From an uncultured Spartobacteria bacterium (GTDB taxonomy: Bacteria; Verrucomicrobiota; Verrucomicrobiia; Chthoniobacterales; Chthoniobacteraceae): 37,372 nucleotides of DNA. The position numbers and the translations under genes were made by a program. Location: contig CAIXGS010000040.1 of assembly GCA_903919125.1 (NCBI GenBank), positions 1 through 37,372 on the forward strand, read 5' to 3'. Every line of letters begins with the position of its first letter. Within the stretch, counting starts at the first letter, position 1. Below, in pieces: positions 2,359 through 37,372 of this stretch. Below the pieces are notes generated by a model. The model had not been told where the DNA came from. It saw nothing but the letters and a program-made list of their open reading frames with translations, and did not search any database.

Positions 2359-2388
2359 GTGCACTTGAACGCGGCAAAAGAGGCCTGC

Positions 2389-3546: not shown

Positions 3547-3550
3547 GTTT

Positions 3551-3556: not shown

Positions 3557-3727
3557 GAAGAGAGCTAGCCTAACAGATCCAACCACAAGATGGGGAAATG
3601 CTTTGCGTGTGAAACAAGGTTTGGTGCGACGGATGACATGCAAAGCGATAAAGCAAAGTCCTTTTTCAACGTGATAAAAAAGCCATGACTAGGAGCAAGA
3701 TATTCCTCTTAATGAACTTTCTTTTTA

Positions 3728-4675: not shown

Positions 4676-4749
4676 CATCCCTTCCCTTTATTTTTCTCCC
4701 GAAGCCGCCCTTCTTTTTCAAAGGCTTAATTTCTCATCCTAAAATATTT

Positions 4750-5793: not shown

Positions 5794-5872
5794 GCGGCCA
5801 AGCGAACGTTGAAATAGCCGGACACAGGCTCAGCCCTGTCTTTGCTCCTTAGCCTCCAAATTCCTTGCGCTT

Positions 5873-7938: not shown

Positions 7939-7983
7939 ACACCTCCCTTCCTCCGCCACGCCACCACTTCCCCCGCGCCCCCC

Positions 7984-9165: not shown

Positions 9166-9256
9166 TCAGGGCGGAATCCATGGGCGCAATGTGGGCCCGC
9201 AGTTCAACCGTCTCGCTGAGCGCTGGGGCGTTCCAGTTTCGCCCACGCCGCAGAGC

Positions 9257-9283
9257 CTTCAAATCAAACCGGTTTGTTTGAAG
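9257..9283. repeat. Near-perfect 27-nt inverted repeat at the radC stop codon
   Basis: CTTCAAATCAAACC at 9257-9270 is followed directly by GGTTTGTTTGAAG at 9271-9283. The arms pair completely apart from one bulged base and there is no spacer. The radC stop lies inside the left arm (9259-9261). No T-run follows on either side, so it is not a standard intrinsic terminator, but it sits between two convergent genes. Confidence 0.6.
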
Positions 9284-9981
9284 GAGAACCAAGGAGCGCG
9301 CCCGTTGTCGGCGGTGCCTAGGATGACGTGATCAAGGAGTTGCACTTGTAGGAGGCGAGCAGCCTCCGAGAGGCGCGTGGTCAGGCGACGGTCCGCCTCG
9401 CTGGGAGCAGGATCGCCCGACGGATGGTTGTGCACCAAGATAAACGCGTAGGCGGCCGCAGTGAAGACGGGGGAAAAGATGTCGCGCGGATGAGCAATAC
9501 TTTCATTCACAGTTCCCTTGGAGATTTCCTCCACACGCATCAGTTGGTACCGCGTATCGAGAAGCACGACCCGTAGGGATTCCTTGGTAAGGGCGCGCAT
9601 TTCCAAGCCCAGAAGTTGAAAGACTCGCTCTGGGGAATCGATGCGTTCTCTGCGGACACTCTCCACACTCAAGCGGGCGGCGAGCCCGAAAGCAGCGATA
9701 AGTTGCAGGGCGCGAGTCTGGCCGACGCCCTTGATTTTAGAAAGCTCATCGGCAGAACAGCGACTCAAACCACCAAGCGAGCCGTAGCGTTTCAGCAATT
9801 GTTGACCCAGCTCCAACGCGTTGGCTCCCAGCACCCCCGAACGCAATAAAATGGAGAGCAATTCGCTATCGCTCAAAGCCCCGTGGCCGTTCGCGAACAG
9901 CTTTTCCCCTGGTTGCGCCTCCCCGCCCCCCGCCCCGTTGATTGTGCCAATCCCCACACTCTTAAAATCGGCCCCCACCAA
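9259..9981 (-). CDS. radC: RadC/JAB-domain DNA repair-type protein
   Basis: This encodes 240 residues. The N-terminal part has EKLFANGHGALSDSELLSIL, matching the conserved start of RadC proteins, then a helix-hairpin-helix (IKGVGQTRALQLIAAFG). The C-terminal JAB/MPN domain carries the metal-binding JAMM set: Glu within the VEEISKGTVNES region, then HPRDIF and HNHPSGDPAPSEAD. The family is widespread, but its role in DNA repair is not firmly established. The usual PRE[KR]L motif is PGEKL here. The start is a TTG at 9981; a GTG at 9978 or further inside is possible, as no ATG is available before the conserved core. It lies 108 bp downstream of the metallopeptidase gene on the same strand, separated from it by a hairpin. 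Confidence 0.92.
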   Translation of the reverse strand: MVGADFKSVGIGTINGAGGGEAQPGEKLFANGHGALSDSELLSILLRSGVLGANALELGQQLLKRYGSLGGLSRCSADELSKIKGVGQTRALQLIAAFGLAARLSVESVRRERIDSPERVFQLLGLEMRALTKESLRVVLLDTRYQLMRVEEISKGTVNESIAHPRDIFSPVFTAAAYAFILVHNHPSGDPAPSEADRRLTTRLSEAARLLQVQLLDHVILGTADNGRAPWFSFKQTGLI

Positions 9982-10029
9982 TTCTAAATGTTTGGGATAA
10001 TGAAAAATCGGCAGCCGTACACAGCAAAA

Positions 10030-10059
10030 CGCCCGGAAACGACGGAGCGTCCCCGGGCG
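10030..10059 (-). terminator. Probable intrinsic terminator of the metallopeptidase gene
   Basis: CGCCCGG (10030-10036) pairs with CCGGGCG (10053-10059). Inside, GACG (10041-10044) pairs with CGTC (10048-10051), making a long GC-rich hairpin. Read on the minus strand it lies 30 bp after the stop at 10090 and is followed by GTTTTGC, a short T-run. It separates this gene from radC. Confidence 0.55.
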
Positions 10060-10089
10060 ACTGCGAATATTCTGACTAAATCAGGATAT

Positions 10090-13000
10090 TTATTTAGTGG
10101 TCGTCGTCACCGTGCCTGTCTTCAACGTGCCGGTCGTCGTTAGCGTTCCGGTGTTGGTCAACGTCCCAGTCGTCGTCAACGTCCCTGTCTTCAACGTACC
10201 AGTCGTCGTTAACGTTCCAGTGTTCGTCAACGTCCCAGTCGTAATCACCGTCCCCGTCTTCAACGTACCGGTCGTCGTTAGCGTTCCGGTGTTGGTCAAC
10301 GTCCCAGTCGCAATCACCGTCCCCGTCTTCAACGTCCCAGTGGTCGTCAACGTCCCAGTCGTAATCACCGTCCCCGTCTTCACTACTGGCACAGTGATCA
10401 CCGGAGGGGCAGTGACATTCACTTTCACTGCATTGGATTTTTTCGATCCGAACCCGTTGTAGACGGTCACGGAATACGATCCTGCCGAAGTAGTTGTAAT
10501 CTTATCTTTCTGGAATGTAGGCGAGGAAGACGAGGATTGTACCACCCCATCCTTGGCCCATTGATACGTCAACGGATCAGTTCCCCCAGCGGCCACAGTG
10601 AGTACGAGCGTGTCGCCAACTTTCAAACCATCGGGTGCCACAGGTTGCTGGGTGATGACTGGAACCGAACCGATAATCACCTTTGAACGGCTACAGGAGA
10701 CTGTTCCGTAGCTGTTCGTGGCCTCCATCCAATAAGAACCCGTGTCAGCGCCGGACGCTCTCAACACCGTGAGAACGCCGGTGTTCGCTCCGGAAATCTG
10801 ACTCCCAGAGGACGATGTTCCATCTTTAAGGGTGACGCCGTCCTTGAACCAAGCCACAGAATCCGCACCATCCACCTTCGCTTGCAACACAAAGGCCGAC
10901 GCAGTCGTGGAATGTGTCAAGGTATTGCTCACCACCACTGCTGGAGGCTGGTTCACGATCACCGGTGGCAACCCAAAAGAGTCCACGTACATCCACACAC
11001 GATCGCGGCCGGCGCTCAGACTTCCATCTTTAGAATACGTGAATTCAAACGCAGGGAACGTCCCGGTTGCCACACGCACCGTCTGCTTCACCCAATCAGT
11101 CGCGCCACTCAGTTGCACGGGACGGCCCGTCACAAAATCGTTCACCAGAGCACCGCCTACTCGTAATTTCACGGTGTCTTGATCGGCCTCCGTGGACGCC
11201 TTCCACCAGAAGGAAAACAAGTAATACGCAGAGGCTCGCTTGGGATCGCCGTTATAGAACGAAGTGAACCGTAAGGCGGAGGAGCCCCCGTTCACAATAG
11301 CGCCGCTCTCGGCCACTGCGCGCACCACGCCGTCGGCTCCGATTCTCATCTCCCCAGTCCAAGGAGAGGTGGTGCTGTTGCTGACGTTATAAACCCGGCC
11401 GTTTCCTCCAAGCGCATTGACAACAGGTGCCGACACATCGGAAACCGTCACATTGAAGGTTGCATCGACGGAACCAAATTCATTGGCAGCATTAAGAACG
11501 AAACTGACGGGGCCGTCGGTATCGTCTGTAGGCGTGCCGGTGATCACCTTTTTGGCCAAGTCAAGCGTCAGCCCTTCTGGCAGGCTCCCATCCTTGAGAC
11601 TCAGAGTGCTTGAAGCCGTCACGCCGATTGGGAAATTTAACCTCTTGCCCATCACTCCCGCAAAATCGCGCGTTGAGCCAAACATGGGCTCATTAGTAAT
11701 GCCGCTCGCGCTCCCCGAAAGCACATAGCCACCCAGAGAACCGTATTCAGAGTAACCGGTGGAATATCCGGCTGCAGGTTTGGGCCCAGTTCCGGCCGAT
11801 CGTACCGCGAGCACATAGGTTCCTTCGGTCAGAGTCACATTCACCGCGGCACTCAAGGCATCGGGCAGACTGGAAGCGGCTACCGTCGCCCCGCTGCCGT
11901 CGGTCAAGGTGAGCTGAATATCCACATTCGAGCTCACATTAGCTGGGCGCGCGGATGCGGTGAATGTGCCGCCCTTCGTCTGAAAAGTGAACGTGTCAGG
12001 CACCGTTGCACGCTGCAACAGACCATTGACCATGAAACTCCCAGACGTAGTGGAGGCCGGCAAAATGGCGTTTGGTGAACCATTGCTAACGTAACCAAAT
12101 CCGTTTGTATCGGACGCAATAACTGCCACATCGTCCTGAGTGTTATTTGCCCTCGCGTACTCACCTTTGCTCCACTGCGAGACGCTGACGCTAAAAGGTG
12201 CGCCCATGATCGGCCCCCAACTCGTGGGGACATTCATCCCGCCGCCGTGACCATAAAAATACGTTTGCCCAGCCACAGTCGCTCCGGCCGCATCTTTTGT
12301 CGCGGCCAAACCGTCATGGCCCAGTCCTAAAGTATGACCTATTTCATGGGAGATCGTTTCCGCGCAAACTTTCGTCCCTCCATTAAACACCCAGCAAACA
12401 GTGTCCGACTTGTAACCTTTTCCAGCGGAAGCCCAAGCCCCGATGAAGGCCACCCCACCGCTCCCTGGCATAGCGGTGTTGGTCGGCGTCACCACCGCGC
12501 GCATGCGCAAACCGACAGGAGTGGCTGCGTACAAATCGCGATCCGTGGTGATGGTAATATCAAATGGGGCATAGTCTTCCGCAACGGCTTTCACAATGGA
12601 AGTGATGGAGGCCGCTGTTTCCTTGGAGGGTGCTGCCACAATCGTCTTACCCCCATTCCAGCTAGGATCCGTGATGCTTGCGCCCGCAAAATCCACAAAA
12701 ATGACCCCCTTGGATCCGGGCCGGGTATTGAGCAAAGGAACGTCCGTGCGCACCACTGGCGCGACTGTCGTGACAGTTCCAGTGGTCAAAGAGCCGGAAT
12801 CAATTGCAGCAATTCCAGACTCGGGAGCCGCCGCAAACTCTTTCCCCGAGCAGACCACTGAGTCTAAGCGTCGCTCCACCAGTAAGAGTTCGTCATGGTC
12901 CTGCACAATTCGATAAGCCACGCGCAAAGTTGGACGCAAAATCACTCCGGCAACTTCGTCTATGCTGGAGGCTAACTGGAAAGTTCCAGTCAGATCCGTG

Positions 13001-13494
13001 AGCTCACCCGCGATTCGCACCCAACCGTTATCTGGCATCACAAGGTTCACAAAGCCTTCCACCAAGTCTCCCGAAGCTGTGGGCAAAACAATCCTGTCCC
13101 CAGTCTTCACGGCGGACCATTGGCGGGCAGCAGCGGCCTCCAGTTTGACTATGCGACCCTTATCTGAGTCGGAATTCAATCCAGTCTTGGCTCGCAACGG
13201 CGCACCAATTGGCGCTGCCTGCACTGATAAAAGCCGAGGAAGTGAGTCCAGTGGGTCCACATTTGCAGGGCTACTCGCGGCCTGAGGCTTCCCAACGCCT
13301 CCTGACTGCGCGCCAAAATTACCTAAAGAAGGCGTCCCATCCAACGTTACCGCCGTTGACGCCTCGACTTTTGGCGCGGGCACACCCGCTCCTCCGCCCT
13401 GCAACGCGAGGTAACCCGCGCTGCCGACTAAAACAACGGTTGCACAAGCAACTGCCGTTATCTTCCAACTCACATGATGTTCGTGGTGTTTCAT
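10090..13494 (-). CDS. Exported multidomain zinc metallopeptidase with Ig-like domains and a Thr-Gly-Thr repeat tail
   Basis: This encodes 1134 residues. A basic, His-rich start and one hydrophobic segment (about 11-31) form a signal peptide or N-terminal anchor. The peptidase domain spans about 260-470. It has GVIFVDFAG (263-271), VAEDYAPFDITITTD (304-318) and the metzincin zinc motif HEIGHTLGLGHD (383-394: His383, Glu384, His387, His393), with a likely Met-turn IMG around Met430. Then follow a pre-peptidase-C-like beta domain (about 487-595), a putative-Ig (He_PIG-type) domain (about 605-684), a lectin/CBM-like beta region (690-845) and two Ig-like domains (849-940 and 944-1027, each with a central Trp and a D/SxGxY motif). 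Residues 1039-1134 are pure Thr-Gly-Thr repeats. It probably degrades protein outside the inner membrane; the substrate is unknown. No C-terminal sorting signal such as PEP-CTERM is seen. Confidence 0.88.
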   Translation of the reverse strand: MKHHEHHVSWKITAVACATVVLVGSAGYLALQGGGAGVPAPKVEASTAVTLDGTPSLGNFGAQSGGVGKPQAASSPANVDPLDSLPRLLSVQAAPIGAPLRAKTGLNSDSDKGRIVKLEAAAARQWSAVKTGDRIVLPTASGDLVEGFVNLVMPDNGWVRIAGELTDLTGTFQLASSIDEVAGVILRPTLRVAYRIVQDHDELLLVERRLDSVVCSGKEFAAAPESGIAAIDSGSLTTGTVTTVAPVVRTDVPLLNTRPGSKGVIFVDFAGASITDPSWNGGKTIVAAPSKETAASITSIVKAVAEDYAPFDITITTDRDLYAATPVGLRMRAVVTPTNTAMPGSGGVAFIGAWASAGKGYKSDTVCWVFNGGTKVCAETISHEIGHTLGLGHDGLAATKDAAGATVAGQTYFYGHGGGMNVPTSWGPIMGAPFSVSVSQWSKGEYARANNTQDDVAVIASDTNGFGYVSNGSPNAILPASTTSGSFMVNGLLQRATVPDTFTFQTKGGTFTASARPANVSSNVDIQLTLTDGSGATVAASSLPDALSAAVNVTLTEGTYVLAVRSAGTGPKPAAGYSTGYSEYGSLGGYVLSGSASGITNEPMFGSTRDFAGVMGKRLNFPIGVTASSTLSLKDGSLPEGLTLDLAKKVITGTPTDDTDGPVSFVLNAANEFGSVDATFNVTVSDVSAPVVNALGGNGRVYNVSNSTTSPWTGEMRIGADGVVRAVAESGAIVNGGSSALRFTSFYNGDPKRASAYYLFSFWWKASTEADQDTVKLRVGGALVNDFVTGRPVQLSGATDWVKQTVRVATGTFPAFEFTYSKDGSLSAGRDRVWMYVDSFGLPPVIVNQPPAVVVSNTLTHSTTASAFVLQAKVDGADSVAWFKDGVTLKDGTSSSGSQISGANTGVLTVLRASGADTGSYWMEATNSYGTVSCSRSKVIIGSVPVITQQPVAPDGLKVGDTLVLTVAAGGTDPLTYQWAKDGVVQSSSSSPTFQKDKITTTSAGSYSVTVYNGFGSKKSNAVKVNVTAPPVITVPVVKTGTVITTGTLTTTGTLKTGTVIATGTLTNTGTLTTTGTLKTGTVITTGTLTNTGTLTTTGTLKTGTLTTTGTLTNTGTLTTTGTLKTGTVTTTTK
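10093..10380 (-). repeat. Thr-Gly-Thr repeat array, 69-bp period
   Basis: The last 96 codons of the peptidase gene consist of TGTLTT, TGTLK, TGTVI[T/A] and TGTLTN hexa/pentapeptides. Four of these make a 23-residue (69-bp) block, repeated about four times, the third with TGTLTT in place of TGTVI[T/A]. The array ends in TGTVTTTTK. The copies are nearly identical at the DNA level, which suggests recent expansion or gene conversion. Confidence 0.85.
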
Positions 13495-13958
13495 TTTCTG
13501 GGGGTTCTGATGAGATATAACGCAATCAGCAAGTCACTCATCTAGCATCAGCCAAGCCAAGGTGAGTTATCCTCAAAAAAATTCTAATAAAAGATGAACT
13601 CACTGAGTAAACGTAAGTTTCGCCTTTGCCTATAGGCACAAAACCTCGCCCGCACCCTTGTCGAGATGCCTCAGAAATGCGAACCCCACCACGTACAACT
13701 ACTTCATTTATTAAAAAGCCGCTCAAAAGTGAGTCAACCAGACCCTGACACACATTCATCTACTGCTTCTGCGTCAAAAGACACGGTCCAACCCGCTGAG
13801 AGTTGGCATTTCCCAAGGAGTGTGAGACAAACATTTGTCGTGCTCACCGAACTCGTCGTTCGGGTCGAGGTAACCATGCGTCAGACTCCGCTTTACTTTT
13901 CCCTGATTTTCCCCTGCCGAGCCTGTATTTCAGGCTTCTTCCTCTCCCTCCCAAGCTT
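13495..13958. other. Divergent intergenic region between the metallopeptidase and the MFS transporter
   Basis: These 464 bp contain only short frames without recognisable content. It must hold the promoters of both divergent genes. Visible elements are a 12-bp perfect palindrome, TGCCTATAGGCA, at 13627-13638 and an inverted pair GTGAGTT (13562-13568) / AACTCAC (13598-13604). No confident -35/-10 pair could be picked out. A frame upstream of the MFS start continues to 13803, but it is compositionally unlike the protein and is not included. Confidence 0.5.
13627..13638. promoter_or_regulatory. Perfect 12-bp palindrome, possible operator
   Basis: TGCCTATAGGCA reads the same on both strands and lies in the divergent promoter region, about 130 bp from the peptidase start and 320 bp from the MFS start. 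It is a candidate dimeric regulator site; a single copy of this length could also be chance. Confidence 0.25.
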
Positions 13959-15239
13959 ATGTCCTCCCCAGAATCTGTAACCCAAACGCCCGCTCCTCCT
14001 CCCACGACCCAAACGACGCTTTCAAAGGCCGCGTGGCTGACCTTGATGGCCGCATTTCTTGGCTGGCTGCTGGATGGTTTCGAATTAGGCCTCTTCCCTG
14101 TAGTCGCGCGGCCCGCCCTGCAAAGCCTCTTGGGACCTGGACTGGAAGGCGGCGTTGGACTTTGGATGGGGCGCATCACAGCGGCCTTTCTACTGGGTGC
14201 CGCGCTGGGCGGCATCGTCTTTGGTTGGCTTGGCGACAAAATTGGGCGAGTTAAAGCAATGGCGTGGAGCATTCTATGCTACTCTATTTTCAGTGGCGCG
14301 GGCTATTTCGCAGAAGCGCCGTGGCACCTCGCTCTGTTCCGCTTCATCGCAGCGCTCGGCATGGGCGGAGAATGGGCGCTGGGCGTGGCGCTTGTCATGG
14401 AAACGTGGCCGGATAAACACCGCCCCTGGCTCGCAGCGGCAATCGGCGCAGCAGCCAACCTCGGCATGGCTCTTGTGGGCGTTGTGGCGCGCATCTTTGT
14501 CGTCACCTCGGATTCTTGGCGCTGGCTGTTTTTAGTCGGTGCCGCGCCGGCTGTTTTGACCCTGATCATTCGAATTTGGGTGCCTGAATCCGAAAAATGG
14601 AAAGCCTCGACGAAGGACGAATCGAGCGAATCAAAGGTCGCCACCGTGCTGCGCCCTCCTTTGCTAACAGTAACGCTGATAGGCATTTTCCTCTCCGCAG
14701 TCGCACTCATCGGGTCTTGGGGTAGCGTCCAATGGATCCCCGCGTGGGCCGATCAACTCACCGGTGGTACACGACCTGACGCCAAAGCCACGGTGCAAAT
14801 CGTCTCCTCTCTCGGAGCCGCTCTTGGCGCAATACTTGGCCCCGTGTTTCTCGCACGTCTTTCACGCCGACTCGCCTACGGAATTTTGAGCGCTCTGGCT
14901 CTCACTTTTAGCGTGTGGCTATTTCGGTTTCCAGCGGAATGGGGCACTCTGTTTTTGGTGAAAACCGGCCTCATCGCGGTCACGACGGCCTCGTTCTACG
15001 GTTTTTTCCCGCTCTATTTTCCAGAGCTTTTCCCCACAAGCGTCCGAGCGACGGGACAAGGTATCTGTTACAATTTCGGCCGCATTATCGCCGCGTTTGG
15101 GGCACTCGGTAGCGGGCAACTTGTCGCGCAACTAGGCGGTTACGCCCAGATGGGCGCCGTGGTCACTTTAGTTTACGTGCTGGGCATCGCACTGGCCTTC
15201 ATCGCCCCGGAAACCAAAGGCCGACCCCTTCCAGATTAG
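13959..15239 (+). CDS. MFS transporter, metabolite:proton symporter type
   Basis: This encodes 426 residues from the ATG at 13959; the frame is open further upstream, but the MSSPESV start precedes the first membrane helix by the usual distance. About 12 hydrophobic segments are visible. Family signatures are GWLLDGFELGLFP in helix 1 (acidic Asp39), GWLGDKIGRVKAM in the loop between helices 2 and 3 (89-101, MFS motif A), the GMGGEW segment (134-139) with VMETWPDKHRPW after it, and PELFPTSVRATGQGICYNFGR in the second half. These match the sugar/aromatic-acid/sialate symporter branch. It sits in the inner membrane and probably imports a small organic acid or sugar with protons; the substrate cannot be assigned. 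A hairpin terminator follows. Confidence 0.9.
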   Translation: MSSPESVTQTPAPPPTTQTTLSKAAWLTLMAAFLGWLLDGFELGLFPVVARPALQSLLGPGLEGGVGLWMGRITAAFLLGAALGGIVFGWLGDKIGRVKAMAWSILCYSIFSGAGYFAEAPWHLALFRFIAALGMGGEWALGVALVMETWPDKHRPWLAAAIGAAANLGMALVGVVARIFVVTSDSWRWLFLVGAAPAVLTLIIRIWVPESEKWKASTKDESSESKVATVLRPPLLTVTLIGIFLSAVALIGSWGSVQWIPAWADQLTGGTRPDAKATVQIVSSLGAALGAILGPVFLARLSRRLAYGILSALALTFSVWLFRFPAEWGTLFLVKTGLIAVTTASFYGFFPLYFPELFPTSVRATGQGICYNFGRIIAAFGALGSGQLVAQLGGYAQMGAVVTLVYVLGIALAFIAPETKGRPLPD

Positions 15240-15278
15240 AAGGTGTCCCAGCGCGACGGCTATCTCCGTTCAACCGGA

Positions 15279-15297
15279 GAAGACGTCTGCCGTCTTC
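15279..15297 (+). terminator. Probable intrinsic terminator after the MFS gene
   Basis: GAAGACG (15279-15285), loop TCTGC and CGTCTTC (15291-15297) form a 7-bp stem followed by the pyrimidine-rich CTCGTTCTACTCGTTTT. A second hairpin, TCTCCG/CGGAGA (15263-15280), lies directly before it. Confidence 0.5.
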
Positions 15298-15333
15298 CTC
15301 GTTCTACTCGTTTTCCAAAAAGAGCGACGACCG

Positions 15334-16173
15334 TTAACTTGCGGGACCATCGGCGGCAACGCTCGCGGCCTCCCACGTCTTAAGCTCTGCATCGCGCCCA
15401 GCGATTGTCCGGCGCGCTTTGTCGAGCGCGTACTTTCCAATCACCAGCAGTAGCGGTGGCCGTTCGGCATCCACCGCCTGCAAGATCACATGCGCCGCTA
15501 AATCAGGATCGCCTGGCTGTTTTCCATCAATGCCATCAATGAACTTCGCGAATTTTCCCACGCTCGCTTCATATTCAGGCAAAGCTACTTGTGCCCGATC
15601 TAAAGAACGAGAGATGAAGTCCGTGCGAAACGGTCCCGGCTGCACAATAGTTACCTTCAACCCGAAAGAACGCCCCTCTGCGGCTAACGATTCGCTCATT
15701 CCTTCCAGCGCACACTTCGCCGAGCCGTAAATTCCAAACCCCGCGTAATTCGCAATCGCTGCGGCTGCACTGATATTAAGCACATGCCCCGATCGTGCCG
15801 CTCGGAAATGAGGAAGAGCGCAGCGGATCAGTTCGAGAGGGCCAAAGAAATTGACCTCAAAATTGCGACGAATCTGAGCAGGCGAACATTCTTCAAGCGA
15901 ACCCAGAAGACCATAGCCCGCATTGTTGACTAGAATATCGATCCGCCCGAACACACGGACCGCTTCATCCACAACCTGTTGAATCTGTTTGAAATCAGTG
16001 ACATCTAAAGTTGCGAGATGCGAATTGGCGGGCCAGCGCGCCGCTAAATCCGCCAACGTCGCCACATTGCGAGCCGTCAACACGACGCTATCGCCGCGCC
16101 CAAGAGCAGCCTCGGCCAAAGCCCGACCAAAGCCACTGGAACAACCGGTAATGAGCCAAACCTTTTCTGACAT
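15334..16173 (-). CDS. Short-chain dehydrogenase/reductase
   Basis: This encodes 279 residues of the classical SDR fold. The cofactor motif TGCSSGFG is at 9-16, NNAG at 83-86, and the catalytic Ser135, Tyr149 and Lys153 lie in NISAAAAIANYAGFGIYGSAK. The PGPFRTDF segment follows. The length, about 30 residues beyond the minimal SDR, and the start WLITGCSSGFGRALAEAAL match the oxidoreductase group often annotated simply as SDR family. It is an NAD(P)-dependent dehydrogenase on an unknown alcohol or ketone, in the cytosol. It lies 68 bp downstream of the uncharacterised Pro/Glu-rich gene on the same strand and is convergent with the MFS gene. Confidence 0.93.
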   Translation of the reverse strand: MSEKVWLITGCSSGFGRALAEAALGRGDSVVLTARNVATLADLAARWPANSHLATLDVTDFKQIQQVVDEAVRVFGRIDILVNNAGYGLLGSLEECSPAQIRRNFEVNFFGPLELIRCALPHFRAARSGHVLNISAAAAIANYAGFGIYGSAKCALEGMSESLAAEGRSFGLKVTIVQPGPFRTDFISRSLDRAQVALPEYEASVGKFAKFIDGIDGKQPGDPDLAAHVILQAVDAERPPLLLVIGKYALDKARRTIAGRDAELKTWEAASVAADGPAS

Positions 16174-16241
16174 GCCTCAAATCATTTGGCAAAACCGCGC
16201 AAAACGCACGTTCGAAAATGTCCGCAGAAGCCCACTGCGCG

Positions 16242-17531
16242 CTAGCCCCGCAGTGGTTGAGAGACCCACCCACACAACCAGGCACGCAAGTGCGCCGGCA
16301 TTCCTTCAGTTTGATGCGCCACCGCCACAAGGCACGAACCACCGCCGAAGATTGAAATTCCCCCAGTCGCTTGGTGCACCGTCACGCTGAGAAAACCGTC
16401 CTGACCGCGCTGCCCCAAAAAGCCGTTTTCTAGCATCTTCTCTAACCGAGCCCGCATCAGACTGCCCCGCGCATCGAACCCTAGCTCTCCGGTCTGTAAA
16501 GCGTCCTGATCCAACCACAAAGCAAAACCGCGGACTTCTGGAAATCTAGAAAGTGACAGGCCAAGCTCCTCAAAGCGTGTCTGCGGCAACGCCACACGCG
16601 CCTCGCCCTGCGTCTGCGAAGCGAGCCCCATCTTCCCTCGAACGGACCGCGCCTCTACACTACTGCCTGGGTCCATCCGCGCCCAATCAGACGCCTTCTC
16701 AGTTCCAGAAACTAACGGACGAGCTGGCGTCTCCTCAAGCACCTGACGCTTTGCGGGAACCTCCACGGCGACACGCGCAGGCTCAGGCAATGCGACGCGC
16801 TCGGCTTCCGGAACGGACTCCGCATACGCCTCCAAAATCTTTCTTAATCTCGAGTTCGAACCCGTCGCAGGCGGTGCTGTTTTCGGAGCACCTCGAGAGG
16901 AAAGTGGCTGCGAGTCCGCTATATTTTTCTGCTCCAAAACAGCCTCAAATGCGGCTGGGGTTGGTCCCTCTGGGGGAGGCAGTCGGACGCCGCGTAGCGC
17001 CTTCATGGTTTCTCGCGCCTCGGCAGTCGTCAATTTCGAAGCGCGCAATTCCTCCTCCCAATCCGAAAAAGTGCCCCGTTCCTGTTCCGCTTCAGCGAAA
17101 GACTCCAGCGGTATATCAGTCTGCTGTGGAAGCGGTTCTCGAATAGGTTCAAGAGAAAGATCAAACCCTACATCTCGCTCGGCCGCACCAGGATCGCGGA
17201 AATGTTCCGGGTACTGGCGAACCAGATAACGCAACGAAAATGCGAGTGGTCGCTCGGCGCCTACGTCTAGCCGAGCCTCCACAGGCAATTCAACGAGACG
17301 TTCTGGCGTCCAATCCCCCGCACGTTTCCATTGAGAGGGAACCCGCGGCATAAGCTCCGCAAGCGCCACCCGCTGGAGAATCCCGCGCTTACTCAAAAAG
17401 GGATGCTGCGCTGAGGGCGGCAGCGTTGAGGGCACGTCGAGGGGGCCGTCTATCGGCTCGAACACTATTTCTTCTGGCTTCGAAGGCGGTCCATTGAAGT
17501 ACGCGCCCATGATTCGGCGAAACAAACCCAT
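16242..17531 (-). CDS. Uncharacterised Pro/Glu-rich protein with a compact C-terminal domain
   Basis: I do not recognise this protein. The frame begins at 17630, but the first 33 codons (rich in Trp, Cys and Phe) look unlike the rest. The ATG at 17531 (MGLFRRIMGAYFNGPP) is preferred; it follows a purine-rich AAAAGGGG stretch and leaves 150 bp to the divergent neighbour. That gives 429 residues. The first 320 are rich in Pro, Glu, Ala and Arg, with no signal peptide or membrane helix, and are probably largely disordered. The last 105 form a plausible alpha/beta domain: FPEVRGFALWLDQDALQTGE, a helix, then GFLSVTVHQATGGISIFGGG and CLVAVAHQ. This alternation weakly resembles Roadblock/LC7-type domains, but that is only an impression. 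Divergent from the yycJ-like gene and upstream of the SDR. Confidence 0.7.
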   Translation of the reverse strand: MGLFRRIMGAYFNGPPSKPEEIVFEPIDGPLDVPSTLPPSAQHPFLSKRGILQRVALAELMPRVPSQWKRAGDWTPERLVELPVEARLDVGAERPLAFSLRYLVRQYPEHFRDPGAAERDVGFDLSLEPIREPLPQQTDIPLESFAEAEQERGTFSDWEEELRASKLTTAEARETMKALRGVRLPPPEGPTPAAFEAVLEQKNIADSQPLSSRGAPKTAPPATGSNSRLRKILEAYAESVPEAERVALPEPARVAVEVPAKRQVLEETPARPLVSGTEKASDWARMDPGSSVEARSVRGKMGLASQTQGEARVALPQTRFEELGLSLSRFPEVRGFALWLDQDALQTGELGFDARGSLMRARLEKMLENGFLGQRGQDGFLSVTVHQATGGISIFGGGSCLVAVAHQTEGMPAHLRAWLCGWVSQPLRG

Positions 17532-28482: not shown

Positions 28483-31400
28483 CTAGAACCCAATCGTAAA
28501 GGTGGCCCCGCCGCGAAGCACCCGGTTGCCTTCGGCAAAGTCCTGCTCCGCGTACAGGCGCAACGTACGGCGCTCGCCCAATGTGAATTCCACTGAGGAG
28601 CCAAAGCGCAAGGAATCGGCGCTACGGCGTTTGTTGCTGACTGTCCACGAAATGTCGGGAGCTCCCTGCCAACGCACTTCCTGACTACGTCCGGCGGCGG
28701 AGAAATCATGAACCCAGGCACCTAAAAGGCTCACTCGCACGGGTTGCTTCATAATCCGACCTTCCCTTGAAACTTCCACGCCCATCTTGGAAAGCATCGT
28801 AGTATCCCAGCGCGCACTCGTGTTGACTCCCAAAGCGCCGACATATTGTTCCGACATTCCAGCTTGATGCACTCCGACAAAGGCGAGCCGGGCAGTCGGA
28901 ACAATGCTCCAGCGACTTCCCGCTGCTGCGAGTTGAGCGCCCATCCCAACTTGGGTCAGCCACTCTTGGGTTTCGGTTTTCACACGACTTTCAGCGCCGG
29001 TGTCCAATTGGGTGCGCCGGATAACGTTATCAGAATTGCCGTAAAACGCGGTGAGATCCAAGAACAGGCGCCATGTCAGCGGCGTGCTCATGTACATCCC
29101 CAAGTGCCAGCTATCGGAGGAGATTCTTGAGGAGGGCAAATTCAACTGTGTGGAGGATGTTCCACAGGCACCGAAGAAGCCGAGTGTCAGACGACCAAAG
29201 CGGCGCTCTACGGATGTCACATCGCCGAAAGAATTGCGGGAGGAGCCGCCGTCACCATTTGCAAGGTCCTCTTTGTGATTACTAGAGCTACCGTAGACGC
29301 TAGTCCAAGCGTTCCATGAGTTGCCAAGGCCGGTAGATTGATCCAACACTTCAAGCTCACCCGGGGTCGTGAGCACGGTGCCGAGCGAATTTAAACGGTC
29401 GGAAAGTGATTTCTGAATGTCCTGCATCCGCCCGAGAGCCAAGGTGTAGTTTTCCGCATAGATCTGCGCATTGAGTCGGTCGTAGATGGAATAGATCGAA
29501 GCGGTAGTGGGGTCTAGCTCCAACTGCTTAAGTACGAAAGCCAGCACAGGATTCTCTTCGGTGTTGGGAGCAGCTGCAGCCGCACCCGCCCCAGTGGGAG
29601 CAGACGCCAACAACAACCGGTCCAAAGCACCGCCGATCTGCGCGCGGGAACCGGTGAGCGCTCCGCCGATTTGCGAGAACCGCACCCGTTGTAGGGTCAT
29701 TTGAAGGCCTCTGCGCGTGCCGGCAGCCGCAGCCGCACCCGTGGGCACGCTATCAATAGAACCGAGCGAAACGATCTGGAATGAAGCTTTAATCATTGGT
29801 GTTGATGCAACCGCAGCCATTTGATCGAGCTTCAACTGTTCATCACTCCCGACAGACAACTCATTTTCAGCTGAAACAATCACAGAGGAATGTGGGTTGA
29901 AATCGGTGAGGCGCATGGTTTTGGCCTTTGGATCCGTGTAAAGCTTTGGACGAACGGTGACGTCGGCTAACTTGGCCACACCTGAGGTGGCCTCGGCACC
30001 AGATCTAATAACCTGCATCAGATCTGAACCTAGTGTCCCGCCTGAGAGTTGGTACTCCACTTCGTAAATGCCTCCAGAGAAAGTGACACTGCCTTTAACC
30101 TCCTGTGTACCAATGGAATTGCCGGGGGCGAGAGTGGCGTTAGAGGAAAGTCGCAGCACTCCCACTATAGTACCCCTACCCTCTAATCTTTGGGCCTGAG
30201 TGCCACCACCAACCACCAACCCCGCTGTCCCAAGACTGGAGACGTCCAGTTTCACCCCTGAGGAACCACTACCACCGACGACAAGATTACTGAGCTGACT
30301 CAGCGTCTGACTGCCCTGTACAATTGTAGTGCCACCACTCCCGGTCAAAATAGCCGAGCCGGTAGCCTTCACCGAGCTAGCGAGCACTAAAGTTCCTCCA
30401 CCAGAAGTGGTCACGCTGTTAAGCACTTGATTCCCTTGTACGGAGAAGGAGCCTGCGTCTATTCCCATAGTGCCTTGCAGCGAGCCTGCACCCGTCCACA
30501 CCACGGTTCCGCTGCCTGACTTGGTCAGCCCATTCGCACCGCTCTGAGCGCCACTGACAGTCAGTGTCTGTCCCGTGAGGACGCTCATATTTCCCGACAC
30601 CGTCAACGCACCTGCGCCCTGTTTGGTGAGAGTACCGGAACCCGAAATCGTCCCACCAAATACACCGCCCCCATTGCCCACATTAACCGCGACATCTCCA
30701 CCCACAGTCACAGGAACAGGAACCACCACGACCGCTTCTACGGTCACGGAAATCGGCGCACCCGAAGACGAAGTACCAGTAGTGGTGGTGCTACCCGCCA
30801 AAGCCAACTGACCTCCGGCGAGGCTGAGTGAGGCGCCTATGTTCGCAGCACTTGAAACCTGCAATGTACCCGCCTTTAGCGCGGTGCCATTCGCAAGCGT
30901 GTTGGTCCCCGTCACAACGAGCGTTCCAGAGCCGGACTTCAACAATTCGCCACCACCTGCCAACGTATTACTGAGTGTGACTTGGCCAGACTCCTTGTTG
31001 ACGCTCAGAGAGGCCGCACTGCCGACATTCACAGCCCCGGTACCCAAAGCTCCGGTGGACTGGATTTCCAGTGTGCCGCCGCTGAGATCCGTGCCGCCAG
31101 TGTAAGCGTTGTTAGATCCAGTGAGCACCACCTTGCCGCTCCCGCCGACAAGAAGCTTGCCGCTCCCAGCTATGGAATTGCTCAACGTCATGACGGTTCC
31201 ACCGGAAACGGGATTCAGTACCAGTGCGCCGGAAGTCCCCAACTGTACTGAGCCTGAACCAAGTGCATTCCCATTTTTTGCAACCAGCAAACCACCATCA
31301 ACCTCGGTGCCGCCAGAATAGGTATTTGTACCGCTGAGAACAAGCGTGCCATCGCTCTCTTTCTTAACGGCACCAAAACCCGTGACCGCACCACTTAACT

Positions 31401-34400
31401 CCAAAGTACCTGACTTAATCTCCACCGAGGCCACCGACCCAATGCTCACTGGGTTATTCACCACCGTTGAGCCTGACGTTCCGCTCGTCGCCGTGAAGGA
31501 GATCGTGCCGGAGCTCAATTCTAAAGTTTCCCCCTTCCGCAAGGTCGTTGGATCACTAGTGCTACCCTTAGGCACTTCCACGATGGGTGGCACGGTGGTG
31601 CCGCCGTTCCATGTCACGGAGTATCCGCTGAGACTTAAGACGCTGCCAACCGTGCCTCCTTGAATAGTGACGTGGGGAATGTTCAAATCATAACTCAGAT
31701 TAAAGACGATCTGCGCGTCGTCAGCCAAGGAGATGACACCAGTAGAAGCGGAGGTACCAGCGGAGAGCGAGGAGCCGAAGAGCTTTACGCTATTGGCCTC
31801 AGCTATAGTGCCGATTTCAAGGCGGCCGGCCTTGATGAACGTATCCGATGTCATCGAGAAGCCTTGCGAGAGCAAGAGCGTCCCTGCACCCAACTTCACC
31901 AAACTACCCGGCCCAGACACCAAGTCGCTAATCGTGAGCTTAGCGCTGGTATCCACGGTGAAATTCGTCGTCCCCGCGATAATTACAGGGCCGGAGATCT
32001 CATGGGTTCCTCCGGAGGCTAAGATTGACGCCGTTCCCGATCCCAGACTGCTGAGCGAAACCGTCCCGTTGGACAATGTCACGCCCCCAGCCCCGCTGAG
32101 AGACAAGCTCACCAGTTCAACCGTTTTTCCATCGAGATCTACCTTCGTGGACTGCGCACCGGACGTGACAGATCCCGAATCCACACTGCGGCTTGCAGCG
32201 CCGTCCAACCCGGGACGCCCACCCAGCTGCGTCCAGTTATTCCAACCCGTCCACGAACCAGAAGCAGCACCTGCCCATACCCCTTGACCAGAATAAACAG
32301 TGCCAGTGACGGCTACAGAGCGAGAGCCTAAGGATAGATCGGCGAGCCCGGTGCCTGTCTGTCCTTTCGAAGTGAGGGAAAGGGTGAGCGCGCCCTGTTT
32401 CACTCCGGCCACAGAGGTGTCGCCCGAGTAGAGAACGGAAACGGCGGAACTGCCACCCGCGCTCAGCTTGACAGAACCGCCTGCCAGAGCGCCGCTAAGG
32501 CTTAACGAACCTGTGCTGGTCATCTGCGCGAGGAGATCGTCGGAGAAGCCATCGTTCAGCGCGCTATTCGCGAGCGTCAGCGTGGAAGCGGAGAGCGAAC
32601 CGCCTGCATGCACGCGGCCAAGGTTCAGCGTCAGGTCTGCGGTACCACCGTTGAGGCTCACTTCCGCCTGGCGGTAAACCGTCGCGTTGACTGCGATATA
32701 CTGACCCGCGAGGCCAACGGTCGCTAGGCCGGTTCCCGCTTGACCGAGTGAGTTCAACGTCAAGTTCAAGGAACCGCTCTTTAACCCAGCCGTCGTGGTC
32801 TCTCCCGTATACCCCACATTCATCGCCCTACCGCTGCCTGCGCTCAAGGTCGCACTCCCGCCAGTCAGCGAGAAGCCTGTCCCCGCTCCGGCGCTCACTC
32901 CGAGCAAGTCCGAGAAGCCGTCGTTTGCCGCGCTGTTGGTCACCGTTAAGGTGGTCCCACCCACGCTGCCACCCGCACGGATTGTTCCAAGATTGAGCGT
33001 TGTCGCGCTTAGGCTGCCAACCGCCAGACGGTACACGTTGCCGCTTAGCGTCAAGGTCTGGGAACCGGCGCTGATGGCCGAGTAGCCGCTCGTACCGGTC
33101 CCGTCCGAGGCATAGTTCACGGACACCGTTCCGGTCTTGAGTCCGGCGCTCGCAGAGTCAGACAAACTTACACGCAGCGTCGTCGCGTTATTCGTTCCAG
33201 CCGCTAGCTGGCTCAACGATCCGCTCGTAATTGAGGCTGCGCCTCGTGCCCCGCCCAGCGACACATTGAGGATCTCGCTGAACCCGTCCGTTGCTGCCGT
33301 GTTGTATACGTTCAGCGTTCCGGAAGCGAACGTGCCGCCCTCACGCACCGCAGCCAACGTGAGCGAGCCTGTCGCCAACGAACCCACACCCAAACGGTAC
33401 ACCGTCCCAGTCAAGTTCACCGTCTGCGTTCCCACCGCCAACGTCCCCAAACCGCTAGTCCCAGTGCCATCGGTGACGAACCCAACGGCGACTGATCCGC
33501 TCTGCACTCCCGTTGTGGCGAAGGTCCCAGCTCCAAGGCCCAACGTCAGCGAGCCAGTCGCAGTTCCTCCAGCAACCACCAAGTTCGCACTACCGCTGCC
33601 GCTGCCAAATCCGCCAGTCCCATTGATAGCTGCATTCAAGCTTTCCGAGTACGAGCCCGAGGCCACCACGTTACGCACATCCAAGAGCGTCGTTCCGAAA
33701 CTGCCGCCCTCGCGAATATTCCCGAGGTTCAACGTCCCACCGCTCGCAAAGATACTCCCACTGGATACCAGCGTCCCAACCGCCACACGGAAGACGGTGC
33801 CTGTGACCGCCACAGTCTGGGAAGCAATCACAGGAGTGGCGTTAGCGAGGCCCGTCCCCACCTGACCGAGAGAGGTGTAGCTGATCGTGGCCGTACCGGA
33901 GAGAAGTCCGGCAGATGCACTTGGTCCCGCAGCCGCGATGGTGAGACTCGAGGAAGCCGTTCCGCCCGCAGTCAAAGCGTTCACACTTCCAGATGCGATA
34001 AATCCACTACCAGTCACGGAGATAGCGGCGGAAAGGTCATCCGAGAAACCATCCGTAGCGACCTTGTTAGTAACACTGAGAGCCCTACTCGCGAATGTTT
34101 CACCAAGACGTACGGAGCCGAGATTTACGGTGCCTCCTGCCGTCAGCGACCCAACGGCAAGCCGATAAATGGAGCCGCTGACATTCACAATCTCAGTGCC
34201 AGCAGAAACATCCGCCAGACCAGTACCAAGCTGGCCCTTCGATGTGTAGGCCACCGTGGCAGTAGATGATACAGCCCCAGCGGCAGCCGTTGTGCCAGCG
34301 TAGACAAAACGCAAACTCGACGCTGCAGTAGAACCAGCAGCAAGCCTAGAAGTGCCTCCCGACACCTGCAGTCCGCCATCAGCCGTGCTCACTGCTACCG

Positions 34401-37372
34401 CGAGATCGTCGGAGAAGGTATCCGTACTCGCCGTATTTGACACACCAAGCGAACCGGAGTTGAACGTTTGGTTTTCACGAATCGCGCCCAGATTCACGCT
34501 GCCCGCAGCGAGAGTCCCAGTCGCCAGACGGTACACCGTTCCAGTCAAGTTCACCGTTTGCGAACCCGCAGAAATCGCACTCAAGCCGCTAGTGCCAGCG
34601 CCGTCCGTCTGGAAAGCAACCGCAACAGTTCCAGACTTCACGCCAACACTCGAGTAACTGCCTGAACCCAAGCCGAGCGTGAGTGCGTTGGTAGATGTCC
34701 CACCCGCGAGCACCAAACTCGCGCTACCAGTACCACTGCTGAGGCCAGCCGTGCCGCTAATCACCGCATTGAGGCTCTCAGAGTAGGAACCCGAAACAAC
34801 CACGTTACGCACATCCAAGCCTGAGGTTCCGAATGACTGACCCAGACGGATGTTCCCGAGATTGAGGGTTCCACCGTCAACCAGTGTTGTTCCGTTGCTG
34901 ACCAAAGCGCCAACAGCAGTGCGGAATACGGTGGCGTTGATGTTGACCGTTTGGCTACCAAGCGACACATCTGCCAAATCAGCGCTCTGTCCCACTGAGG
35001 TCAACGCCAGGGTCAATGTGCCGCTCTTGAACCCAGCCACCGAAGTGTCACCAGTGTAACCCAAATTCAGATTCGATCCCACTCCCGCAACCAAAGTGAC
35101 AGAGCCACCTGTCAGCGAGAAGCCGCTGGCAGACGATGCCTGAACACCCAGCAAGTCGGAGAAGCCGTCTGTCGCAGCAGTGTTCGTGATGACGACTGAT
35201 CCCGTGGAAAGCGTGTTAGCTCCAGCGCGAATCGTACCCAAGTTTAGCGTGGTTGGGTTGATACTGTAGCTCGCCAAACGGTACACAGTCCCGCTGACGG
35301 AAAGCGTCTGAGTGCCGGTGTCAAGGGCGCTGAAGCCGCTAGTGTCGCTGCCATCGGAAGCATACTGCACAGCAACGGTGCCCGTCTTAGTGCCCACAGC
35401 GGAGGTGTCGTTCAAAGTGACCTTCAAACTCGTTGCGTTAGATGACCCGGCTCCAAGCAAGGAAAGCGTGCCGCTCACAATGGAGGCGGAACCAGTACTG
35501 AGTCCGAGCAGGACGTTCAGTTTTTCACTAAACCCGTCGTTGGTGGTTAAGTTGCTCACCGAAACGCTGCCAGAGGCAAACGTGCCGCCGATGCGAACGG
35601 AGGGCAACGTCAGCGATGTGGCATTGAGCGAACCGGTCGCCAGACTGTAAACCGTGCCGGTTAGCAACACCGTTTGTGAGACCAACGAACCGGAAACAAT
35701 ACCACTGGTACCCGTACCGTCGGTTTCAAATCCAATCGAGACTGTTCCGGTTTTGATGCCCGAGGCGGCAAAAGTTCCTGAGCCAAGCCCAAGGGTCAAC
35801 GCGATTGGAGAGACACTGCCGGCACTCAAAGTACCCACGCTTCCGATGCCGGTCGCTAAACCATCTATACCACCCACGAATGCGTTGAGGCCTTCGGAAT
35901 AGCCATCTGAAACCGCCGTGTTTCTGACATCCAAAGTCGCCGTGCCAAAAGTACTCCCTGCGCGAATGTTTCCTAAATTCAAAGTGCCGCCACTGGCCAG
36001 AGTCGTCCCACTGTTGGCAAGTTGAGCAACTGCCGGACGGTACACGGTGGCATTGACGGCCACGCTCTGATCGGCAAGTGACACCGTTGCGAGGCCTGTT
36101 CCAAACTGGCCCACAGAATTCAAACCGAACGTGAGGGTGCCGCTCATCGTACCGACCGTATCCGTCTGACCGGAATACCCCACCGATAGGATCGCCGAGG
36201 TGCCGCCAGCCAAGGACAACGTGCCGACGCTCAATCCAAACCCGTTAGTGCCCACAACATTGACTCCCAGCAGGTCTGAATAACCATCATTGCTGCTGCT
36301 ATTGGTTACGCTAACAGTGCTTCCGCCCAGAGAATCGCCAGCTCGGATATTGCCAAGATTCAAAGACGAAGCGCTAAGCACCGCCGACGCCAGACGGTAC
36401 ACCGTACCGCTGAGAGTCACCACTTGAGAGCCAGCCGAAATCGCCGCCAACCCGCTAGTGCCCGCGCCATCCGAAATATACTGTGTGGAAACCGTGCCGC
36501 TCTTTGCCCCTGCGGTGGCCGTATTGCTCAACGAAATACGCAGTGTCGTGACGTCGCTGCTACCCGCCGCGAGAGCGCTGAGCGTGCCATTTGAGATGGA
36601 GGCGTCAGCCGTTGCACCTGCCAGAGAAACGTTCAGCCGTTCACTGTAGGAATCATTCGCGGCAATGTTTGTCACGGAAAGGGTTCCAACGCTGAAGGCA
36701 TCGCCCTCGCGGACCGCGCCTAGGTTAAACACGCCGGACGCCAGCGTCCCAACCGCCACGCGGAACACAGTCGCGTTGACTGCAACAGACTGATTGGCAA
36801 GGCCGACTGTCGAAAGACCCGTCCCAGCTTGGCCTATCGAGTTCAACGTCAACGTCAGCGAACCGCTCTTTAATCCAGCCGTCGTGGTGTCTCCTGTGTA
36901 ACCCACGCTCATCGCGCTAGCGCTGCCCGCATTCAAGGTCGCACTCCCGCCAGTTAGCGTCAGCCCAACACCCGCCGCGCCACTCATTCCCAAAAAGTCG
37001 GAGTACCCATCGGTGGACGCCGAATTGTTGATAGTAATCGAGCCGCTAGAGAAGGTGCCACCCGCGCGGATCGTTCCCAGATTCAGCGTCGTCGCGCTTA
37101 GGCTGCCAACCGCAAGACGGTATACGTTGCCGCTCAGCGTCAAGGTCTGTGAACCGGCGCTGATGGCGGAGTAACCGCTCGTCCCGGTTCCGTCTGAGGC
37201 ATAGTTCACGGACACCGTACCAGTCTTGAGCCCGGCACTCGCAGAGTCGGACAGGCTCACACGCAGCGTCGTCGCATTGTTCGTTCCAGCCGCTAGCAGA
37301 CTCAAAGTTCCGTTTGTGATTGAGGCTGCGCCTAGCGTTCCACCAAGCAACACATTGAGGCTTTCGCTCAAA
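28483..37372 (-). CDS. Giant autotransporter (type V secretion), 5' end outside window
   Basis: 2962 codons are visible; the first one is inside a repeat unit, so the true start is beyond the right edge. Three regions follow in order. First, about 14 copies (first one partial) of a 120-130-residue beta-rich unit (37372 to about 32280) with NLG.IRAG, VTN.A.DG[FY]S[DE].L, GSQ.V and GTVYR.A landmarks. Second, about 32280-30100: GVWAGAASGSWTGWNNW and about five autotransporter-associated beta-strand repeats such as GSGTLVVTGTNT, ending in the LAPGNSIGT motif. Third, a linker and a C-terminal outer-membrane beta-barrel of about 280 residues (about 29325-28486, from SWNAWTSVYG to a final Phe, TFTIGF). 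The passenger is probably a very long surface adhesin or shield. There is no catalytic domain and almost no cysteine in the visible part. Convergent with the thioredoxin-like gene. Confidence 0.93.
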   Translation of the reverse strand, partial: LSESLNVLLGGTLGAASITNGTLSLLAAGTNNATTLRVSLSDSASAGLKTGTVSVNYASDGTGTSGYSAISAGSQTLTLSGNVYRLAVGSLSATTLNLGTIRAGGTFSSGSITINNSASTDGYSDFLGMSGAAGVGLTLTGGSATLNAGSASAMSVGYTGDTTTAGLKSGSLTLTLNSIGQAGTGLSTVGLANQSVAVNATVFRVAVGTLASGVFNLGAVREGDAFSVGTLSVTNIAANDSYSERLNVSLAGATADASISNGTLSALAAGSSDVTTLRISLSNTATAGAKSGTVSTQYISDGAGTSGLAAISAGSQVVTLSGTVYRLASAVLSASSLNLGNIRAGDSLGGSTVSVTNSSSNDGYSDLLGVNVVGTNGFGLSVGTLSLAGGTSAILSVGYSGQTDTVGTMSGTLTFGLNSVGQFGTGLATVSLADQSVAVNATVYRPAVAQLANSGTTLASGGTLNLGNIRAGSTFGTATLDVRNTAVSDGYSEGLNAFVGGIDGLATGIGSVGTLSAGSVSPIALTLGLGSGTFAASGIKTGTVSIGFETDGTGTSGIVSGSLVSQTVLLTGTVYSLATGSLNATSLTLPSVRIGGTFASGSVSVSNLTTNDGFSEKLNVLLGLSTGSASIVSGTLSLLGAGSSNATSLKVTLNDTSAVGTKTGTVAVQYASDGSDTSGFSALDTGTQTLSVSGTVYRLASYSINPTTLNLGTIRAGANTLSTGSVVITNTAATDGFSDLLGVQASSASGFSLTGGSVTLVAGVGSNLNLGYTGDTSVAGFKSGTLTLALTSVGQSADLADVSLGSQTVNINATVFRTAVGALVSNGTTLVDGGTLNLGNIRLGQSFGTSGLDVRNVVVSGSYSESLNAVISGTAGLSSGTGSASLVLAGGTSTNALTLGLGSGSYSSVGVKSGTVAVAFQTDGAGTSGLSAISAGSQTVNLTGTVYRLATGTLAAGSVNLGAIRENQTFNSGSLGVSNTASTDTFSDDLAVAVSTADGGLQVSGGTSRLAAGSTAASSLRFVYAGTTAAAGAVSSTATVAYTSKGQLGTGLADVSAGTEIVNVSGSIYRLAVGSLTAGGTVNLGSVRLGETFASRALSVTNKVATDGFSDDLSAAISVTGSGFIASGSVNALTAGGTASSSLTIAAAGPSASAGLLSGTATISYTSLGQVGTGLANATPVIASQTVAVTGTVFRVAVGTLVSSGSIFASGGTLNLGNIREGGSFGTTLLDVRNVVASGSYSESLNAAINGTGGFGSGSGSANLVVAGGTATGSLTLGLGAGTFATTGVQSGSVAVGFVTDGTGTSGLGTLAVGTQTVNLTGTVYRLGVGSLATGSLTLAAVREGGTFASGTLNVYNTAATDGFSEILNVSLGGARGAASITSGSLSQLAAGTNNATTLRVSLSDSASAGLKTGTVSVNYASDGTGTSGYSAISAGSQTLTLSGNVYRLAVGSLSATTLNLGTIRAGGSVGGTTLTVTNSAANDGFSDLLGVSAGAGTGFSLTGGSATLSAGSGRAMNVGYTGETTTAGLKSGSLNLTLNSLGQAGTGLATVGLAGQYIAVNATVYRQAEVSLNGGTADLTLNLGRVHAGGSLSASTLTLANSALNDGFSDDLLAQMTSTGSLSLSGALAGGSVKLSAGGSSAVSVLYSGDTSVAGVKQGALTLSLTSKGQTGTGLADLSLGSRSVAVTGTVYSGQGVWAGAASGSWTGWNNWTQLGGRPGLDGAASRSVDSGSVTSGAQSTKVDLDGKTVELVSLSLSGAGGVTLSNGTVSLSSLGSGTASILASGGTHEISGPVIIAGTTNFTVDTSAKLTISDLVSGPGSLVKLGAGTLLLSQGFSMTSDTFIKAGRLEIGTIAEANSVKLFGSSLSAGTSASTGVISLADDAQIVFNLSYDLNIPHVTIQGGTVGSVLSLSGYSVTWNGGTTVPPIVEVPKGSTSDPTTLRKGETLELSSGTISFTATSGTSGSTVVNNPVSIGSVASVEIKSGTLELSGAVTGFGAVKKESDGTLVLSGTNTYSGGTEVDGGLLVAKNGNALGSGSVQLGTSGALVLNPVSGGTVMTLSNSIAGSGKLLVGGSGKVVLTGSNNAYTGGTDLSGGTLEIQSTGALGTGAVNVGSAASLSVNKESGQVTLSNTLAGGGELLKSGSGTLVVTGTNTLANGTALKAGTLQVSSAANIGASLSLAGGQLALAGSTTTTGTSSSGAPISVTVEAVVVVPVPVTVGGDVAVNVGNGGGVFGGTISGSGTLTKQGAGALTVSGNMSVLTGQTLTVSGAQSGANGLTKSGSGTVVWTGAGSLQGTMGIDAGSFSVQGNQVLNSVTTSGGGTLVLASSVKATGSAILTGSGGTTIVQGSQTLSQLSNLVVGGSGSSGVKLDVSSLGTAGLVVGGGTQAQRLEGRGTIVGVLRLSSNATLAPGNSIGTQEVKGSVTFSGGIYEVEYQLSGGTLGSDLMQVIRSGAEATSGVAKLADVTVRPKLYTDPKAKTMRLTDFNPHSSVIVSAENELSVGSDEQLKLDQMAAVASTPMIKASFQIVSLGSIDSVPTGAAAAAGTRRGLQMTLQRVRFSQIGGALTGSRAQIGGALDRLLLASAPTGAGAAAAAPNTEENPVLAFVLKQLELDPTTASIYSIYDRLNAQIYAENYTLALGRMQDIQKSLSDRLNSLGTVLTTPGELEVLDQSTGLGNSWNAWTSVYGSSSNHKEDLANGDGGSSRNSFGDVTSVERRFGRLTLGFFGACGTSSTQLNLPSSRISSDSWHLGMYMSTPLTWRLFLDLTAFYGNSDNVIRRTQLDTGAESRVKTETQEWLTQVGMGAQLAAAGSRWSIVPTARLAFVGVHQAGMSEQYVGALGVNTSARWDTTMLSKMGVEVSREGRIMKQPVRVSLLGAWVHDFSAAGRSQEVRWQGAPDISWTVSNKRRSADSLRFGSSVEFTLGERRTLRLYAEQDFAEGNRVLRGGATFTIGF
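28486..29335 (-). other. Autotransporter beta-barrel domain
   Basis: The last 280 or so residues have alternating amphipathic strands with aromatic girdles (WTSVYG, LGMYMSTPLTWRLFLDLTAFYG, RLAFVGVHQAG, LLGAWVHDF, FGSSVEFTLGERRTLRLYAE) and end in Phe after TFTIG. This is the pore-forming translocator that inserts into the outer membrane with BAM. A Phe at the end is the classic recognition signal. Confidence 0.88.
30100..32280 (-). other. Passenger region with autotransporter-associated beta-strand repeats
   Basis: It begins GVWAGAASGSWTGWNNW, a typical first strand of such passengers. About five copies follow the pattern G.G.L.K.G.GTL.L.G.NTY.GGT.V..GTL.V, for example GAVKKESDGTLVLSG with TNTYSGGTEVDGG. 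It ends in LAPGNSIGT near 30110-30135. It is expected to form a right-handed beta-helix. Confidence 0.85.
32280..37372 (-). repeat. Array of about 14 tandem 355-396-bp units in the autotransporter passenger
   Basis: Unit boundaries taken at the DG[FY]S[DE] motif fall near 37000, 36640, 36270, 35890, 35520, 35150, 34775, 34400, 34040, 33640, 33275, 32905 and 32540. Units are 120-130 residues. Every third unit (ending near 35890, 34775 and 33640) carries an extra 10-residue insert before NLGNIR and is followed by a [YF]SE.LNA-type unit. The pair at the right edge and the pair at about 33275-32905 are close to identical. Confidence 0.85.

Follow-up and report, generated by a model that had tools for sequence, protein, structure and literature searches.

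A candidate giant autotransporter of a Chthoniobacteraceae genus that joins a stack of choice-of-anchor D units to a beta-helix and a C-terminal barrel

What kind of protein is encoded at the right-hand end of this Chthoniobacteraceae (Verrucomicrobiota) contig, and how would it be held at the cell surface? The window, meaning the whole stretch of DNA analysed, is the entire contig G000:C40, which ends at position 37372; labels of this form give genome and contig, G000 is the host genome (87 contigs, 4.34 Mb) and the host genus is the Chthoniobacteraceae genus that contains it. An earlier note on this DNA, made from the letters alone, had read the last part of the window as encoding a giant, repeat-built autotransporter with a passenger of well over 2600 residues. 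The frame is not a chance one, since the remaining five frames have 60-163 stops each across 28483-37371 and the minus-strand frame has none. Third-position GC is also unlike that of positions one and two. With the contig ending at 37372, the 5´ side of the gene is missing, so that the listed TTG need not be the true start, and any signal peptide or outer helix of the gene would lie in the part not seen. The passenger comprises at least 2676 aa, and the 2962-codon frame, its units, its autotransporter repeats and its PF03797 barrel bear out the overall description (Table 1).

Table 1. Features of the frame at the contig end, in window positions
Feature	Position	Strand	Basis or remark
Giant autotransporter, C-terminal part, 2962-codon open frame	28483..37371	-	5´ end cut by contig end
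PF03797 autotransporter beta-barrel, chain end ..GGATFTIGF	28552..29310	-	E 4.8e-30; TIGR01414 E 8.3e-14
Predicted alpha-helical linker ahead of barrel	29374..29649	-	Model residues 1008-1099, moderate to low confidence
Predicted inner beta-helix with autotransporter repeats (PATR / TIGR02601)	29851..32178	-	Model residues 165-940; fold matches
Junction of stack and inner helix, GQGVWAG..SGSWTGWNNW..GGRPGLDG	32092..32289	-	Alignment; kept in genus mates
13 complete ASH/PapD-like choice-of-anchor D units	32290..37116	-	NF012200, parsing, AlphaFold2 model, fold matches
Recently duplicated A-B block, reference copy	32664..33266		Second copy 36753-37355
Partial type-A unit, residues 1-85	37117..37371	-	91% aa identity to unit 11

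Parsing by landmarks divided residues 1-1694 into 13 complete units of 119-131 aa and one partial unit, which agrees with the approximately 14 long beta-rich units, and the landmarks, named in the earlier note. Four types can be told apart, A (122 aa), B (119), C (131) and D (122-125), and along the chain they follow one another as A (partial) B A B C A B C D D C A B B'. The guess that they were of the choice-of-anchor D type, a family of surface proteins named for its varied C-terminal anchors, was a good one: the NCBIfam profile choice_anch_D (NF012200) matched 13 stretches of the window chain (E 2.6e-88; 291.7 bits against a cut-off of 45), and single units scored 40-56 bits, several of them exceeding the cut-off. 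A sequence search of the PDB gave no match, and TRF at its thresholds reported no tandem array. Units of the same type were mostly 47-66% identical between the window protein and the relatives on G015:C2 and C82, compared to mostly about 30-47% between types within the window protein. Because identity within a type across species is higher than identity between types inside one protein, the types and their C-A-B order probably date from before the species split. One A-B block arose by a more recent duplication, and its two copies have 76% and 87% DNA identity in the block's two parts.

The AlphaFold2 model of three adjacent units in the order C-A-B (pLDDT 93.9) consists of ASH/PapD-like sandwiches with the seven strands and Ig-like fold expected of this class, as the earlier note had suspected when it called the units Ig-like. 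The three-unit and single-unit models matched ciliary central-apparatus chains, the ASH domains of CEP192 and HYDIN, and PapD-like chaperones. Single-domain matches had Z of about 10-12 and rmsd of about 2-3 Å over about 100 residues, among them 6fvi (Z 11.7, rmsd 2.0 over 106) and 2ys4 (Z 10.8, rmsd 2.0 over 99). A relationship between ASH and PapD has been proposed (PMC4094338); the likeness of the modelled units to these domains is one of fold only, with no function implied. By profile and predicted fold, then, the units are members of the choice-of-anchor D (NF012200), ASH (ASPM/SPD-2/Hydin) and PapD-like group. What sets this protein apart is that its stack leads into a beta-helix and an autotransporter barrel, and that its units are of four types with a conserved C-A-B order.

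The C-terminal part of the protein has the features of a type Va autotransporter. Four PATR and five TIGR02601 stretches were found in profile scans and the chain ends in a barrel recognized by the PF03797 and TIGR01414 profiles, so the autotransporter repeats and type V barrel of the earlier note are both present. The beta-helical passenger adjoins an alpha-helical linker in the model, the linker with moderate to low confidence. Type Ve proteins, in contrast, have an N-terminal barrel and a C-terminal Ig-like passenger, whereas the barrel here is C-terminal and of the PF03797 type. The model of the C-terminal region had an overall pLDDT of 74, with the junction and helical end poorly modelled. 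In VIA-align, the inner helix superposed on the helices of VacA p55, EspP and Ag43 (Z about 11-18) and on a fragment of IcsA, and a Foldseek search with the helix model returned no match below E 0.001. These matches of a model indicate shared folds only and no toxin activity is implied. We also noted that the barrel came to light only in a separate scan of the C-terminal 406 aa; hmmscan with the whole 2962-aa chain overlooked this clear PF03797 match, and giant repetitive chains may thus be under-annotated.

Given that the gene is cut, we compared it with its relatives. Of 12 host-genus genomes 5 were positive with the unit profile, as were 10 of 213 from the order and 8 of a 387-genome draw from the phylum, each count including the host genome; a scan of a genome collection with the B-type unit found one locus, in the Chthoniobacteraceae MAG RH-26jul17-185, on the contig that is G015:C82. 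Eight of the ten host-genus unit proteins end in a barrel, those without one being on G015:C82 and G005:C9. The complete relative on G015:C2 is one unbroken 20,385-codon frame; judged by eye, its N-terminus, taken from a GTG at codon 98 (about 20,288 aa), is signal-like. A home-made repeat profile then has 82 hits across residues 294-17530; units continue to residue 19157, and five further hits precede the barrel. The window protein is 43% identical to the C-terminal 2,860 residues of this chain, colinear over its own whole length. The order on G013:C3 is the same, with helix repeats flanking the units on both sides, and repeat-like sequence lies upstream of the units on G012:C61 as well. The layout in genus mates is therefore outer helix, ASH stack, inner helix and barrel, and since their repeats extend outside the stack, the window gene probably also had a further helix there. 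No exact overlap was found between the end of the window contig and the ends of G000 contigs C10, C30, C13, C45, C48 and C54, and its final 573 bases occur once, apart from one 80% internal copy. The frame on G000:C10 (10,747 codons, open at its 3´ end) is a possible, though unproven, N-terminal part of the gene. The window gene and the relatives tested had no flanking genes in common.

The unit proteins found outside the host genus, within the phylum, are anchored differently. All 12 have PEP-CTERM-like tails by eye, and the ten tails scanned all matched PF07589, six above the cut-off of 20.7 bits, three just under it (18.5-20.5) and that of G203 weakly (13.9), in agreement with NCBIfam. Some of these proteins, for example in G053 and G203, also join the units to beta-helix/PATR repeats. 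The earlier view that units and a beta-helix in one chain are unusual was thus only partly right: other Verrucomicrobiota have the same join in proteins with PEP-CTERM tails, and it is the barrel anchor that is particular to the host genus among the 213 order and 387 phylum genomes. The window protein ends in its barrel and not in a tail of PEP motif, hydrophobic stretch and basic end, and PF07589 had no match across the host genome. The exosortase profile PF09721 was undetected in the host genome and its 11 genus mates, all drafts of 62-97% completeness, compared to 26 positive genomes among 28 others of the family (Fisher 1.6e-8); for PEP-CTERM tails the counts were 0/12 and 27/28 (Fisher 2.3e-9), though because the genomes share ancestry these p-values overstate the case, and the pattern is probably one event. 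A draft can miss an exosortase, as seen for G020 with 31 PEP-CTERM matches and exosortase undetected, and absence calls can therefore err, but 12 of 12 negative genomes together with the lack of any PEP-CTERM tail are harder to explain by draft gaps. Autotransporter barrels occur both in the host genus and in exosortase-positive genera; among the matches listed, barrel-bearing frames of >2500 codons made up 17/52 in the host genus versus 1/58 outside, lengths that contig breaks blur.

We consider it fairly likely that the window protein is a type Va autotransporter whose long, probably adhesive fibre is held by a barrel in place of an exosortase anchor. The type Va route of Sec export, Omp85 insertion, C-first passage and stepwise folding is well established. 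By this route, the giant chain would leave the cytoplasm through Sec, its barrel would be placed in the outer membrane by Omp85/BAM proteins, two Omp85 proteins being present in the host genome, and the passenger would cross the outer membrane C-terminus first. Once at the surface, the inner beta-helix and its cap would fold, and then the ASH/PapD-like units would do so successively, forming a bead stalk that carries the further, probably longer, beta-helix outward. In another member of the Verrucomicrobiota, Akkermansia, nine autotransporter-barrel proteins have been found in the outer membrane (PMC4960237). Attachment or surface structuring is the most likely role of the fibre; adhesion is a guess from architecture, as no binding domain was identified in the window protein. 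Two kinds of anchor would serve the unit family, a PEP-CTERM tail where there is an exosortase system and, in the host genus, mostly a PF03797 barrel, and the likely evolutionary step between them would be a change of anchor.

As to how this change might have come about, it is conceivable, and we suggest it tentatively, that exosortase was lost in the host genus, that ASH-unit proteins were kept through gain of a barrel and that passengers then grew to ~20,000 residues. The unit tree (122 columns, 114 rows) did not resolve the direction of the change and the host genus is one lineage, such that the association of anchor and exosortase may be a single event or a coincidence. The latter would be expected if promiscuous ASH units and PATR helices had been joined to barrels separately, with no swap. 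The host genome does have a barrel-end module without units, on C13 (about 41% identity to the module of a relative), and barrels are common in exosortase-positive genera, both consistent with independent assembly. However, G020, G026 and G038, from three other genera of the family, have units, PEP-CTERM tails and barrels together and yet place the units on the PEP-CTERM tails, as do all 12 unit proteins outside the host genus, and we think this account rather unlikely.

Two more radical alternatives concern the protein itself. The contig breaks off amid the repeats, and contig ends also cut several further giant genes of G000, raising the concern that the assembler misjoined repeats or that the gene is a decaying remnant. 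Such an origin is very improbable for 2962 codons without a stop, with the position-specific GC described above, colinear identity to G015:C2 over the whole length and a C-A-B order of unit types that recurs in other assemblies. Since the stack and the helix are alike in their Gly/Ser/Thr-rich composition, it could also be asked whether the 120-residue units are plain beta-helix coils and the whole passenger one continuous helix, the outcome of structure prediction that the earlier note had named as counting against its reading. The prediction for adjacent units was run and gave no such coils; the confident sandwich model and ASH/PapD-like matches tell against them, and, with the NF012200 membership, leave a continuous helix next to no probability.

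Compared to known systems, the modules are familiar and we found no description of the arrangement in the literature searched: no paper was found with both 'choice-of-anchor D' and 'autotransporter', nor one combining exosortase, loss, autotransporter and anchor. Type Va autotransporters whose passengers carry PATR (PF03797 with PF12951/TIGR02601) have the C-terminal barrel, alpha linker and repeat-bearing beta-helix in common with the window protein, which differs in the inserted ASH stack. PEP-CTERM/exosortase-sorted Verrucomicrobiota proteins have the units and, in several cases, PATR repeats, but are anchored by a tail, as opposed to the barrel of the window protein, in a genus where exosortase is undetected. 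Stacked Ig-like domains also form the surface stalk of intimin/invasin (type Ve) and of SiiE. The window protein belongs with neither, as the barrel of intimin/invasin is N-terminal to the stalk and SiiE is a type I substrate, described as a giant type I adhesin (PMC6272769).

Two points make the locus of interest: the pattern of anchors and how large the relatives are. In related genera, one set of surface modules seems to be held by two unrelated anchors, tracking exosortase presence, which offers a natural comparison for the role of PEP-CTERM/exosortase sorting in Gram-negative bacteria, a role largely inferred so far. As for size, none of the autotransporters surveyed in 2012 was larger than BigE at 10,429 aa, a length due to repetition of the protein's own passenger domain and to 69-residue repeats (PMC3419190). 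The G015:C2 frame is about twice as long, though larger autotransporters may have been reported since 2012, and bears on the length of passenger that can pass through one barrel.

Other giant frames were noted along the way. The G000:C10 frame (3-32243, minus strand, L120 and L121) has a signal-like N-terminus, autotransporter repeats and, by eye, NHL-like repeats. G000:C30:3-21578 (minus strand, L118; 7192 codons, 3´ open) and G000:C13:2-17287 (plus strand, L027; 5762 codons, 5´ open) have near-identical repeats of about 98 residues in common, and although the contig ends do not overlap, these repeats suggest that the two frames may belong, unproven, to a single autotransporter gene at least about 13,000 codons long. 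The end of G000:C48 (L122) and the start of G000:C45 (L124) have an identical 141 bases, lying in each case in the frame of a different giant protein; the assembly graph probably branches here at a repeat common to both. In the G015:C82 protein (1-16971, L067), units, the conserved junction and PATR are followed by many I-set/Ig_3 domains; this protein and that of G005:C9 (L072) both end in ..REMEEMLK(Q/E)SL(Q/S)RELA(T/A)IAGE. Finally, the window itself encodes, at 10090-13494 on the minus strand, a 1134-aa protein with reprolysin-like metallopeptidase, He_PIG and Ig_3/I-set domains.
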